The notes under the pieces are model-generated. The model was given only the letters and a program-made list of their open reading frames with translations, did not search any database and was not told the origin of the DNA. A stretch of 29,030 nucleotides of DNA from a virus, in the IMG/VR virus record IMGVR_UViG_3300008111_000132, positions 1-29,030 of that record. One strand, written 5' to 3'. The stretch's first letter is position 1, and the number at the start of each line of letters is the position of its first letter. The translations under genes and the position numbers were made by a program. Below, one piece after another: positions 61 to 8,900 of this stretch.

Positions 61-408
61 ATGGACTATAATAAAATATTTTTTGGTATACTATTCGGTA
101 TATTCGGACAAATCGGAACATTTTTACAATTACAAGGATCTTACAAGTATGGTTGGCACGAAAAGTACCAATGGATTATTATTTTGGCAAGTGTACCTCT
201 CGGTTTTTTGTACATTAAGTCTGTCAATTATTTTATCGAAGGATTTGGTGGACAGATATGGCCAAGTAGGTTAATTGGGTTTGGTGTCGGTGTAATCATT
301 TTTACTTTGATGTCATATTATATCTTTAAAGAACCGTTGAACCTTAAAAACGTATTGTGTTTAATATTAGGGTTTTGTATTGTTTTGATCCAACTTTTTG
401 TTAAATAG
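61..408 (+). CDS. Small four-helix membrane protein, DMT/SMR-like
   Basis: The 115-residue product is almost wholly hydrophobic, with four likely membrane helices at about residues 5-22, 37-53, 69-88 and 95-113. The length, four-helix layout and the FKEPLNLKN-like turn before the last helix recall small multidrug resistance or half-EamA proteins of the drug/metabolite transporter superfamily. It would sit in the host inner membrane. The ATG at 61 is the first in frame. No substrate can be named and a pure structural role is possible. The promoter of the next gene overlaps its last codons. Confidence 0.75.
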   Translation: MDYNKIFFGILFGIFGQIGTFLQLQGSYKYGWHEKYQWIIILASVPLGFLYIKSVNYFIEGFGGQIWPSRLIGFGVGVIIFTLMSYYIFKEPLNLKNVLCLILGFCIVLIQLFVK

Positions 409-2443: not shown

Positions 2444-2869
2444 ATGGAAACTGAAAAATTAGAGTTTATGATGAAGGCAGATGCCCAATTCAAACAACTT
2501 AAAGAAGAAAGATTAAAAAGGATTAAAGAATATTGGAATAATGAATTACCAAAATTCAACGAACCACATGATGTTCCAGATCTACCACAAGTAGATGAAA
2601 AGGAATGGAAAGAATTTTATGTCCCTAAATTAATTGAGGCTGGTGCCATTCCTAAGAAAGATTTGATTGATGGTCAAATTTACATCGGTAACCACAGAAA
2701 TACTACGGTTGCAAGATGGAATCAAGAGACCAATAAGTTTGATCATATGAGACACAAATTTGGTTGGAGAGAGGATGTGTGTAATCATTTTGAAGATGAT
2801 GATGGGTTTGCGTTATTTGTTCCAATTAGATTAGGAACACAAGAAGATTGGGATGAAAAAATAAAATAA
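2444..2869 (+). CDS. Hypothetical protein, 141 aa
   Basis: A soluble protein with a helical, charged N-terminal third (LKEERLKRIKEYW), a Pro/Asp-rich link (about 38-50) and a compact C-terminal part with GQIYIGNHRNTTVARWN and an acidic DDDG stretch near 118-121. It has no signal or membrane segment and is not a recognised family. It is coupled to the 81-aa gene upstream, and the tRNA-operon promoter follows 14 nt after its stop. Confidence 0.75.
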   Translation: METEKLEFMMKADAQFKQLKEERLKRIKEYWNNELPKFNEPHDVPDLPQVDEKEWKEFYVPKLIEAGAIPKKDLIDGQIYIGNHRNTTVARWNQETNKFDHMRHKFGWREDVCNHFEDDDGFALFVPIRLGTQEDWDEKIK

Positions 2870-2882
2870 TTAATCAGTATAT

Positions 2883-2913
2883 TTTGATTTATAAAGAAAA
2901 TTATTTATCTTTG
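2883..2913 (+). promoter_or_regulatory. Promoter of the tRNA/ncRNA operon
   Basis: TTTG at 2883-2886 and TATCTTTG at 2906-2913, 19 nt apart. Transcription should begin within a few nt of the tRNA-Met 5' end at 2921, so this tRNA has almost no leader. Confidence 0.8.
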
Positions 2914-2920
2914 TATATAT

Positions 2921-2992
2921 CGCAAGGTAGAGCAGCGGTAGCTTACGAGGCTCATAACCTCGGGGTCGGGGGTTCGAGTCCCTCCCTTGCAA
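2921..2992 (+). tRNA. trnfM: Initiator tRNA-Met (CAT)
   Basis: A 72-nt cloverleaf with anticodon loop CTCATAA and T-arm GGGGG-TTCGAGT-CCCTC. The first base C1 faces A72 (CGCAAGG against CCTTGCA), so the end of the acceptor stem is unpaired. This is the hallmark of bacterial initiator tRNA needed for formylation. The D-stem has the A11-U24 pair typical of initiators. The anticodon stem is CGAGG/CCTCG, so it has two G-C pairs next to the loop and then A-U, not the usual three G-C pairs. CCA is not encoded. It is first in the RNA operon. Confidence 0.88.
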
Positions 2993-2995
2993 CAA

Positions 2996-3179
2996 AACAG
3001 GTGACGACGGCGGTGAAACCCCACTGTCTATAAATCTCAACACCCGCCTTGATTCGCGGTATTATAGCGGTGAGAGTAGAGTTACTATAAGTCGGGAGTA
3101 GCTATCCAATGACGAAAATGTAACCACAGATATAGAGATATATTTGTTATGATGTACAAAAGGGTACGAAAAACCTGTT
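2996..3179 (+). ncRNA. Structured spacer RNA between tRNA-Met and tRNA-Asp
   Basis: The 190 nt between the two tRNAs is GC-richer than its surroundings and contains no ORF. Its ends pair perfectly: AACAGGT (2996-3002) with ACCTGTT (3173-3179). Inside are a 7-bp hairpin GGCGGTG / CACTGTC (3009-3015 with 3022-3028), a CACCCGC / GCGGTG pairing near 3042-3084, and small AT hairpins near 3140-3166. The closing helix begins 4 nt after tRNA-Met and ends 4 nt before tRNA-Asp, so tRNA processing alone would release it. It matches no RNA class I know, and it is too short for the GOLLD or ROOL phage RNAs. Confidence 0.55.
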
Positions 3180-3182
3180 AAA

Positions 3183-3256
3183 GGATCGGTAGTTCAGTTG
3201 GTTAGAATGCTGCCCTGTCACGGCAGAGGTCGCGAGTTCGAGTCTCGTCCGGTCCG
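3183..3256 (+). tRNA. trnD: tRNA-Asp (GTC)
   Basis: A 74-nt cloverleaf: acceptor GGATCGG / CCGGTCC, anticodon loop CTGTCAC (anticodon GTC), T-arm GCGAG-TTCGAGT-CTCGT, discriminator G. CCA is not encoded. It lies between the two structured spacers. Confidence 0.93.
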
Positions 3257-3268
3257 CTCGAAGAGTTT

Positions 3269-3359
3269 TATAGATTTTCAAACCCATTATGGGTCTCAAT
3301 CGAAAATCCAATCATTGTCTCACTGGTGATTGGGCTAAATGTGAAAGAAAAAATCTATA
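3269..3359 (+). ncRNA. Structured spacer RNA between tRNA-Asp and tRNA-Ser
   Basis: A 91-nt element closed by a perfect 10-bp helix, TATAGATTTT (3269-3278) with AAAATCTATA (3350-3359). It encloses two hairpins: ACCCA/TGGGT (3282-3286 with 3290-3294) and CCAATCA/TGATTGG (3308-3314 with 3327-3333). This makes a three-way junction. The closing helix ends 1 nt before tRNA-Ser. It has no ORF or T-run, so it is neither a terminator nor a gene. It may be a small stable RNA or a processing guide. Confidence 0.6.
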
Positions 3360-3360
3360 C

Positions 3361-3448
3361 GGAGAGATGGCAGAGTTGGTCTATCGCACTTGACTTGAAA
3401 TCAAGAGAACGGGAAACTGTTCCGTGGGTTCGAATCCTACTCTCTCCG
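3361..3448 (+). tRNA. trnS: tRNA-Ser (TGA)
   Basis: An 88-nt class II tRNA with the long variable arm expected for serine (GAACGGGAAACTGTTCC). Acceptor GGAGAGA / TCTCTCC, anticodon loop CTTGAAA (anticodon TGA), T-arm GTGGG-TTCGAAT-CCTAC, discriminator G. CCA is not encoded. Confidence 0.93.
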
Positions 3449-3470
3449 CATTAGAAAAGTATTTATTACT

Positions 3471-6245: not shown

Positions 6246-6782
6246 GTGAATTTACAAGAAAACATAGAAAGAATCAAGGAAATGATGGACATTTCATCAC
6301 AAAATGTCAAATATGATGCTATTCTTATTGGTGGATTAGATTATAGAAAGGATAAAAAGGGGAAATTAATTGACAAAACTATAGATGAACAAGTAGAATT
6401 ATTAAAACAAGGTTTTGGGAAAGATAAAAAGATAAAAGGTTTTCAATTTAATGTCAGTTCTTCTACATTACTTGAATTTTTAGAGACGAATCCCAAAGTT
6501 CCTGTGTTTTTATTCAGTGCAGGTTGTAAAATGGCTTTTGATATATCAAGAAGTCCATTTGTGGATAAGAAGAAGATTTACATAATTGAACCTTGGGGTC
6601 TTGGGGAGATCACTCCTAATATTGTAAAAAATGCGGTTAAAGGTGGTGTACCACCAAGACATGTATTTGTTGGAATAAGTAAAGGTACGGGTGTTGGTAT
6701 TGTAGATGGGGCTGTCCCATCTGGTGCAACAGATCATTGGAGTGCACTTACTCTTGTGGGTAAAATGATGAGTACAAAATAA
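6246..6782 (+). CDS. Hypothetical virion-associated protein with NLQENIxRIKEMM leader
   Basis: The GTG start at 6246 is chosen because it keeps the full leader NLQENIERIKEMM, seen on many phage proteins of this group. The next in-frame ATG would cut it. The body (178 aa) alternates beta strands and helices: AILIGGLDY, VPVFLFSAGCKMAF, KIYIIEPWG, HVFVGISKGTG and DHWSALTLVG. This looks like an alpha/beta fold, with a possible Ser or Cys in SAGC and a His in DHWS, recalling hydrolases. That is inference only. It diverges from 6182 across a 63-bp AT-rich gap. Confidence 0.7.
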   Translation: MNLQENIERIKEMMDISSQNVKYDAILIGGLDYRKDKKGKLIDKTIDEQVELLKQGFGKDKKIKGFQFNVSSSTLLEFLETNPKVPVFLFSAGCKMAFDISRSPFVDKKKIYIIEPWGLGEITPNIVKNAVKGGVPPRHVFVGISKGTGVGIVDGAVPSGATDHWSALTLVGKMMSTK

Positions 6783-6809
6783 AACATATTTTCTCTATTT
6801 ATATATAAC

Positions 6810-7163
6810 ATGAAGAAGATTATCATTACCGAATCACAATTAAAAAGAATATTTCTCGAAGAACAATCTGAGGAATATGTTGAACATAAACTTTATGAAG
6901 ATCATTTGGTAAAGACCACATATTTTGCACCTAAGGATAAAATCTCAAAGTTATTTCATGGTCATGGGTATACATTTACAATTGATATTTTAAACAAATC
7001 AAAATTACCTATGACTCTTTTGGCTAAGACACCATCAGATTGGGGTTATAGAGGAGAAAAAGATTTGAATTTTTCAAAACATGCGGTACGTCCAAATGAT
7101 TTAGGTGAGGTTGAATTGATGTTAGTTTATCTTTTCAAAAACCAAGTAGAGAAGAAACTATAA
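6810..7163 (+). CDS. Leader-bearing N-terminal part of a split protein
   Basis: It starts MKKIIITESQLKRIFLEEQ, the clearest copy of the leader in this window. The remaining part is beta-rich (HGYTFTIDIL, MTLLAKTPSDWG) without known motifs. The frame of the next gene stays open back to 7115 and reads well there (PSREETINYCKKFYNDG). This suggests that the two frames are one gene, broken by loss of one A in the AAAAA run at 7137-7141. As annotated it is 117 aa. Confidence 0.65.
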   Translation: MKKIIITESQLKRIFLEEQSEEYVEHKLYEDHLVKTTYFAPKDKISKLFHGHGYTFTIDILNKSKLPMTLLAKTPSDWGYRGEKDLNFSKHAVRPNDLGEVELMLVYLFKNQVEKKL

Positions 7164-7195
7164 ATTATTGTAAAAAGTTTTATAATGATGGTGTT

Positions 7196-7975
7196 TTGAA
7201 CAAAGCTAAATCAACAGTATTGAAGTGGTTAGATGACCCAATAACCATTCAAAAATATATAAAGAATTGGGATATGTCAAAATCTGTAGTGGATTATTAT
7301 TTTCATCACTATAAAAAGACAATAAAAGATGTCAAATTAGAATATGTGATTGATCCAGATGGTGAATATTTGGCCCAAGTTGCACCAAGAAATTTTAACA
7401 AAATATTCAATACTGCAAAGTTTGTTCCTGTAACAATAAATTGTGTTGATAAGTATTTAAACCAATCTTTAAATGCGAAAGATTTTGAATCGGTATTAAT
7501 ACATGAGATGCAACATTTATTTAATTTAATACATCCATGGCATCCTGAGTCTGAATCACCGATAAAAAAAACTTCTAATCTTTACGACATAGCAAAATCA
7601 CAGATAGGTAAAATCACAAATACTGATCAAAGTTTTTATATTATTAAAAGATTAATTAGTGATGGATTTAATGAAAAAGACGCAAAAACCTTGGCCACGG
7701 ATTATGTTTGGTCAAGTTATTTAAAATCACATACAGAATATTTGAATAGTGGTAATGAACTTGCGTCATTCGTATTAGGACTAAGAAGATCTTTAAATTT
7801 AAGACCAGGACAAGAAATTACTAAAGACAATATTATTAAGAATATAGATAATCCAAATGCGACTTGGATAATAAGATTCTATATTAAAAGTGAATTACCT
7901 CTTGAGACATTCCTATCAAAAATAAATTCATATGCAAAAAATGAACCAAGAAGATCAGACACCTACAACGTTTAA
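7196..7975 (+). CDS. HExxH metallopeptidase-like protein (probably the C-terminal part)
   Basis: It contains VLIHEMQHLFN, a zinc-peptidase HExxH motif (His103, Glu104, His107). Downstream are acidic residues E181 and E188 in HTEYLNSGNEL that could give the third ligand, as in gluzincin-type enzymes. There is no signal peptide. No ATG precedes the motif, only TTG at 7196, and the open frame begins at 7115. The true N-terminus therefore probably lies in the gene at 6810, after a 1-nt frameshift. A leader-tagged peptidase would fit a virion-borne lysis or head-maturation enzyme. The substrate is unknown. Confidence 0.65.
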   Translation: MNKAKSTVLKWLDDPITIQKYIKNWDMSKSVVDYYFHHYKKTIKDVKLEYVIDPDGEYLAQVAPRNFNKIFNTAKFVPVTINCVDKYLNQSLNAKDFESVLIHEMQHLFNLIHPWHPESESPIKKTSNLYDIAKSQIGKITNTDQSFYIIKRLISDGFNEKDAKTLATDYVWSSYLKSHTEYLNSGNELASFVLGLRRSLNLRPGQEITKDNIIKNIDNPNATWIIRFYIKSELPLETFLSKINSYAKNEPRRSDTYNV

Positions 7976-8216
7976 CAACATAAAAAATGTGGCGTTCACC
8001 ATATATTTTATTTTGGTTACAATATTTTGTTTTTTTCTTTTTTCATTAATAGAAGAGAAGGATTATGAACTAAAAGAAAAAGAAGAACAGATTCTTGAAT
8101 ATAGTATAATGATTGACAGTTTGATGGATGAACAACATTATTTCCTCGAGTATTTAAAAATTGAAAAACAATGGAACTATCCGAAAGAGAAAAAGATGAC
8201 ATATGGGCAGGAGTAA
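7932..8216 (+). CDS. Single-helix membrane protein with coiled-coil tail
   Basis: It starts at ATG 7932 or 7941 inside the end of the peptidase gene (overlap 35-44 nt, other frame). After a short polar head comes one membrane helix (about residues 18-43), then a charged helical segment (EEKDYELKEKEEQILEYSIMIDSLMDEQ) likely to form a coiled coil. This layout is common for phage holin-accessory or inner-membrane spanin proteins, and the neighbours suit a lysis role. That role is inferred from context only. Confidence 0.65.
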   Translation: MQKMNQEDQTPTTFNNIKNVAFTIYFILVTIFCFFLFSLIEEKDYELKEKEEQILEYSIMIDSLMDEQHYFLEYLKIEKQWNYPKEKKMTYGQE

Positions 8217-8269
8217 TTGTGATTACTATGGTGTCTTTTTTTATTATCATGAGTTTTATCTCAATATAA
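8171..8269 (+). CDS. Small membrane protein, 32 aa
   Basis: ATG at 8171 starts inside the end of the preceding membrane gene (46-nt overlap, different frame). It encodes a charged head (MELSEREKDDIW) and one membrane helix to the C-terminus. The embedded start resembles nested lysis genes of the Rz/Rz1 kind, but no lipobox is present. It ends 13 nt before the stop of the opposing SGNH gene. Confidence 0.5.
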   Translation: MELSEREKDDIWAGVIVITMVSFFIIMSFISI

Positions 8270-8282
8270 ATCCGGCCACTAA

Positions 8283-8900
8283 CTATATATTGGGTATAAT
8301 GTGATCCAAGATTTGACCTTGGACTCCTTTGGTATAATGGCAACACTGATGTTTATTATATCCATTATCAACCAACCACCGATTAAATCCAACATCGAAC
8401 TTGATGTGTTTACCGCATTTTAATAACTGATCCGACCATTCGGTGTTCTCGTTGTAGATATAAAATATCTTAACTCCCCTACTTTCCAACTGTTCAAAGA
8501 TTATATTGAATTGGTGGAATAGTCTTCTATTATAATCCTCACTATAATCTAAAAGGTGGGTGATGATATCAAACATATGTTTTTCATTAGTCAGGATCTT
8601 TCCATTCTCGTCCATACCATCCACATAGAATCTGTTGGTTGATTTGATTTCGTTATCGTTTTTATCGTAGAAACATCCTCTAACGAAATAACTGAAGTTA
8701 AAGAATAGGATATCATTTGGTTTGAACTCGAATAGTTTTTGTAGGAGACGATGGAGGATCATTTCGTTGGATCCGCCGGGGAGTATACTGTTATTACAAT
8801 TATATTCATAACCAATTCTATGGGACAGAAGTTCAACGAAGTGAGGTTCCTTATTTTCTGTGTACCCATAACTGTCCCCGAAGTGATATATTGTGTTCAT
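8283..8900 (-). CDS. SGNH/GDSL-type hydrolase (second copy)
   Basis: The 205-residue protein has FGDSYGY (Ser10, block I), PGGSNEMIL at 41-49 (Gly and Asn45, block III) and a C-terminal HYTKGVQGQILDH with H188 as the candidate catalytic His. It aligns in layout but not closely in sequence with the SGNH protein at 643-1359. There is no signal peptide. It is alone on the - strand between two + operons, so it is probably expressed separately, although no clear promoter is seen. Substrate unknown; glycan de-esterification is a common role of the family. Confidence 0.75.
   Translation of the reverse strand: MNTIYHFGDSYGYTENKEPHFVELLSHRIGYEYNCNNSILPGGSNEMILHRLLQKLFEFKPNDILFFNFSYFVRGCFYDKNDNEIKSTNRFYVDGMDENGKILTNEKHMFDIITHLLDYSEDYNRRLFHQFNIIFEQLESRGVKIFYIYNENTEWSDQLLKCGKHIKFDVGFNRWLVDNGYNKHQCCHYTKGVQGQILDHIIPNI

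Follow-up and report, generated by a model that had tools for sequence, protein, structure and literature searches.

A structured RNA family in the tRNA arrays of large phages, with self-complementary loops that may join its copies

Does the short stretch between two tRNA genes of an uncultured virus encode an RNA in its own right, and what might such an RNA do for the phage? The DNA examined here (hereafter, the window) is the 29,030-nt virus record IMGVR_UViG_3300008111_000132, which carries three tRNA genes (tRNA-Met, tRNA-Asp and tRNA-Ser) at positions 2921-3449. A preliminary description of the sequence had suggested a new structured RNA at 2996-3179 on the plus strand (184 nt; here termed element A), between tRNA-Met (CAU; 2921-2993, plus strand) and tRNA-Asp (GUC; 3183-3257, plus strand). 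The gaps to these neighbors, given there as 4 nt each, are actually 2 nt after tRNA-Met and 3 nt before tRNA-Asp, and the perfect 7-bp closing helix that it reported, P1, is present (AACAGGU at 2996-3002 with ACCUGUU at 3173-3179). Element A is also GC-richer than the window (0.42 vs 0.34), although this is weak by itself, with 6.8% of same-size windows being equally GC-rich. The single-sequence fold (-49.6 kcal/mol) was more stable than those of all 200 dinucleotide shuffles (mean -38.4 kcal/mol, z = -2.66). The element had been described as lacking an open reading frame, and no frame is conserved in the family: lengths vary out of phase and each frame is broken in some members, and a coding origin was rejected.

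Homologs were traced through a neighboring 141-aa gene, which led to a related record (L003) whose element A is 79% identical over 190 nt; further contigs were collected with DNA patterns, built from this pair and then from a wider consensus, and were checked with covariance models. The first exact pattern (GGCGGTGAAACCCCACTG) gave zero matches because it covers bases at which the window copy departs from its relatives. On the basis of these searches, the family comprises 58 records, that is, the window and 57 further uncultured viral records, several of which are near-identical (25 and 27 whole records searched, the window, and five contigs: L013, L017, L027/L067, L072 and L076). Exactly one copy was found in each of the 52 whole records searched. 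Full-length members measure 173-212 nt (about 185 nt) and their covariance-model scores range from 221 down to 123 bits; the window copy matched model R3 over its full length with 203.1 bits (E = 4.2e-50). The flanking genes vary by lineage (tRNA-Met, -Thr, -Asn or tmRNA before; tRNA-Asp, -Glu, -Arg or -Gly after), and tmRNA adjoins or just precedes the element in L016, L020, L083, L087, L093, L098 and L109. Since the neighbors differ between lineages, element A behaves as a unit.

Outside these records, element A is not known from any cultured phage; a BLAST search of five family variants against INPHARED phages returned chance matches only, and exact patterns, which do not span every subfamily, were not found in 84,980 prokaryote species genomes. 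Element A was also absent from Flavobacterium phage immuto, from the huge phages LR756508, LR756501 and LR745206, and from the relatives G001 and G003-G007; a weak model match in immuto (16.7 bits) was rejected since it lies inside coding genes. The terminase of one large element A record is T4-like, and immuto is among its nearest named isolates (25% identity). This kinship, together with the promoter type described below, suggests that the hosts of these large phages are probably Bacteroidota. By eye, a 115-aa ORF at window 61-408 resembles an immuto gene annotated as an EmrE-like transporter.

The architecture was fixed by a mutual-information scan and pair counts on 41 distinct sequences (alignment A4); RNAalifold on 14 sequences had already shown 12 pairs with double changes. 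The resulting comparative model folds element A into two stacked junctions, P1/P2/PC/P7 outside and PC/P3/P4/P5 inside, in which P1 closes P2, the central helix PC and P7, whereas PC encloses P3 with its outer hairpin P3b, P4 and P5. In A4, 33 of the 50 pairs were changed on both sides yet still paired (shuffles 14.5, s.d. 2.0; 0 of 500), and 95.9% of cells were paired, compared with 32-52% in slid controls; since the sequences were aligned by fitting them to the model and the shuffle test keeps the relatedness of members, which inflates it, most weight should be given to the effect size, the slid controls, and PC and the corrected P3, both missing from the model used for alignment.

All seven pairs of P1 showed double changes in A4, and in L110 this helix is AUUCUGA/UCGGAAU, which is complementary and unlike that of all other members. 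The P2 hairpin (3006-3028; 3006-3013 with 3021-3028; this and all helices below on the plus strand) covaries as well (A4 pair 14-31, G-U/U-G; pair 16-29, U-A/A-U). Its 7-nt loop, UGAAACC in the window and UGNRACC in nearly all members of the loop alignment, fits the T-loop consensus, and P2 may be a T-loop-like hairpin. PC (3029-3032 with 3148-3151) was 100% paired, with five types at A4 pair 38-200 (AU 19, GC 12, GU 6, UG 2 and UA 1). P3 and P3b occupy 3036-3076: P3 (3036-3038 with 3074-3076) was also 100% paired, its middle pair being CG in 30 and UA in 10 members, and P3b (3044-3047 with 3067-3070 and 3050-3053 with 3061-3064) covaries. Double changes were observed in P4 (3081-3124) at 5/5 pairs of the lower stem (3081-3085 with 3120-3124) and 3/3 pairs of the middle stem (3091-3093 with 3111-3113), above which 3095-3096 pair with 3106-3107. 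They were further found at 5/6 pairs of P5 (3126-3147; 3126-3131 with 3142-3147), whose length varies among members, and at 3/4 pairs of P7 (3154-3167; 3154-3157 with 3164-3167). The minimum-energy fold missed PC and set P3 one base out of register; its P3 register, like that of RNAalifold, was replaced by the covarying one. An antisense RNA was rejected because two features would give A-C mismatches on that strand: the U-G pair at A4 35-203, which is invariant, and the exchange of G-U for U-G at 14-31.

Thus, homologs in 58 records with heavy covariation, far above chance, bear out the structured RNA proposed between tRNA-Met and tRNA-Asp, and the element is intact in relatives rather than degenerate. 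A search of window 2850-3460 against all families of Rfam 15 (E ≤ 10) gave no match covering element A, and none was obtained at gathering score; likewise, no covariance-model match was found with the Rfam models for ribozymes, 6S, riboswitches and tmRNA, or with those for ROOL and OLE. No description of the element was found in the literature covered, which did not extend to the supplements of large RNA screens (for example, PMC8040213). Element A is almost certainly a real, previously undescribed RNA gene family.

The loops of P3b and P4 suggest how copies of this RNA may associate. Adjacent bases cannot pair within one molecule. When the whole 41-sequence alignment was scanned for adjacent positions that are at least 90% self-complementary with at least two types, only the centers of these two loops were found. 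L3b (UCGCGG; 3054-3059, plus strand) has the self-complementary core CGCG, with CUAG or CCGG in other members: CGCG occurs in 30 and CUAG in 10 (center GC 30, UA 10), and the lone exception, L080, has CCGG one column off. L4 contains the palindrome UAGCUA (3099-3104, plus strand), which is UAAUUA in most members (core AAUU 35, AGCU 4, GAUU 1 and UGCU 1; center AU 36, GC 5). This palindrome is broken in L092 and is kept in L003 only via a G-U wobble; being AU-rich, L4 would provide a weak contact of 6 bp. The L3b state changed about eight times on a tree of the remaining molecule, compared with 9.3 with shuffled labels, and no single-base intermediates were seen. Not all of these changes are independent, because the P3b hairpin appears to be swapped between members as an intact cassette (outside it, L074 and L076 do not differ); perhaps three look separate, which is modest evidence if taken alone. 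Hexamers that could partner the L3b palindrome are present elsewhere in the same loci, at no consistent place.

In a cryo-EM study of OLE, ROOL and GOLLD, the same adjacent-base pattern was regarded as evolutionary support for intermolecular contacts, and the self-complementary signature was used for OLE L9.3 and GOLLD L21a (PMC12286853). Considering that L3b and L4 change yet stay self-complementary, and that OLE and GOLLD have the same signature, we infer that element A is a homo-oligomer held together by kissing loops, with a probability of roughly 0.6. Copies would join through L3b and L4 by loop-loop contacts between molecules, and the product would be a homodimer or, since each molecule has two sticky loops, something larger. 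The changes in L3b may reflect selection for self-pairing and, more speculatively, turnover of specificity. A tentative extension is that copies of element A would form a multi-copy assembly made of RNA only, in phages that also produce the GOLLD cage, with interchangeable loop alleles keeping the assemblies of different phages apart.

Among the alternatives, the one that survives best, albeit unlikely, is a monomeric decoy or regulatory RNA that would bind an RNA or protein of the host, such as a nuclease, a polymerase or a translation factor; its palindromic loops would be binding sites or chance. The small size, the strongly conserved unpaired segments and the T-loop-like P2 loop are consistent with such a role. 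However, it leaves unexplained why the loop centers switch only between self-complementary pairs, and element A resembles neither 6S nor any other family in Rfam.

Somewhat more doubtful is the possibility that element A is a partner of GOLLD that helps build, fills or sits inside the GOLLD cage. The window itself has no match to the GOLLD covariance model (RF02032) at gathering score. The preliminary description had likened the position near tRNAs to that of large phage RNAs, and GOLLD itself is in fact present in 28 of the 52 whole element A records, on the same strand in all of them (many GOLLD-free element A records are cut short). It lies 0.5-13 kb downstream of element A in 24 of these and 112 kb away in the other four, which are near-identical. 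In four records of three lineages (L082/L086, L079 and L117) it is the next gene, with a promoter box of its own. On the other hand, each RNA occurs without the other: GOLLD was lacking in G020, G021, G032, G039 and G054 despite 46-67 kb downstream of element A, and was found without element A in G001 and LR745206.1. Moreover, a common phage lineage could account for the linkage.

Among known RNAs, GOLLD resembles element A in being phage-encoded, non-coding and near tRNA genes and in having loop centers that switch between palindromes (L21a, PMC12286853); many phages with element A carry it too, on the same strand. It differs in size (a Rfam model of 416 positions and a full RNA of >800 nt vs about 185 nt), and element A, at 173-212 nt, falls outside the length and conserved 3' domain that mark GOLLD; the two also have separate promoters. 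GOLLD forms a homo-oligomeric cage; element A shows the sequence signature of loop-loop pairing. ROOL and OLE are structured RNAs that form homo-oligomers via kissing loops, and ROOL, like element A, occurs in phages near tRNA islands (PMC12286853); element A, a putative oligomer, is far smaller and matches neither family.

The ends of the RNA bear on whether it is a gene or a part of its neighbors. Most members have a tRNA or tmRNA ending 0-5 nt ahead of P1. In eight members (L016, L021, L062, L076, L091, L098, L111 and L114), a TAnnTTTG box, which corresponds to the -7 element of promoters in Bacteroidota, begins 11-15 nt upstream of P1. Either way, P1 appears to be the natural end of the RNA, and the box in these eight argues that element A is an independent RNA gene. 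A run of at least five U follows P1 in 30 of the 41 members, its place being taken by tRNA-Asp in the window. In L117, element A has no adjacent tRNA and lies between a gene and the GOLLD promoter, directly before the latter. A Bacteroidota-type box in the window, TATCTTTG (2906-2913, plus strand; 15 nt before tRNA-Met), probably starts a common transcript of tRNA-Met, element A, tRNA-Asp, a spacer and tRNA-Ser. The earlier view that tRNA processing alone would release the element is plausible for the window copy but does not hold in general, as the eight promoter-bearing members show. Element A would be transcribed from its own promoter, or within a tRNA/tmRNA transcript and freed by tRNA end-processing, and would be a stable non-coding gene product of ~185 nt, presumably abundant during infection, rather than a leftover of tRNA processing. 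With tRNA and tmRNA it shares frequent adjacency, probably common transcripts and the T-loop-like hairpin, but it matches neither and its branching differs.

Most members, the window copy included, have a direct tRNA or tmRNA neighbor on at least one side, which could also point to a structured spacer or insulator that aids the folding and cutting of neighboring tRNAs in a long transcript. We consider this improbable: the promoter box separates element A from upstream genes in eight members, L117 has no adjoining tRNA, many unpaired bases do not vary even between divergent members, and a single copy is present per whole record despite arrays with up to 22 tRNA genes. It is very improbable that element A is a ribozyme or a mobile RNA that settled in tRNA arrays, as the varied positions between tRNAs and the HNH-like genes in some arrays (L003) might suggest: Rfam gave no ribozyme or intron match, each whole record has a single copy, and the ends are transcription starts or tRNA ends instead of a split gene.

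Several other elements were observed in and around the tRNA arrays. The next inter-tRNA spacer of the window (3258-3360) gives a fold of one closed helix and two hairpins and is conserved at 98% in L031, and parts of it at 80-92% in L019, L026, L032, L034, L068, L073 and L077. Element B (~73 nt; L017 949-1021, minus strand, and 15 further distinct loci) immediately follows the 3' end of element A in most of the relatives and is absent from the window; covariation was seen in its outer helix (ACUAACUCA/UGAGUUAG to ACUAAUCCA/UGGAUUAG). Three conserved non-coding blocks were found between tRNA genes, none of them in Rfam at gathering score: C (~210 nt; L033 7492-7700), D (~100 nt; L031 633-732) and E (~95 nt; L017 1213-1306, minus strand). 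In L003, a small basic ORF (7611-7730; MARTSKRVARKASSALRSKRTTKDYKSVAGSALRQRRRK) shortly precedes element A, and the record also has HNH-like genes between tRNA genes (6700-7420 and 8440-8855) and a GC-rich stretch after tRNA-Asp that looks structured (8086-8370). L002, L004, L006 and L008, relatives by the neighboring gene, have ~25 tRNA genes in ~7 kb without element A, and the L002 record carries GOLLD. Several undescribed RNAs reside in the tRNA arrays of these large phages, which probably infect Bacteroidota.

By analogy with GOLLD, element A is most likely a structural RNA of infection, and its putative assembly would serve the phage in the same setting. Element A is far smaller than the 'ornate' phage RNAs whose function is in question, occurs in many phages that have them, and at its length lends itself to synthesis, mutation and structure solution. 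Its natural loop alleles (CGCG, CUAG and CCGG; AAUU and AGCU) are ready-made tests of the importance of self-pairing.
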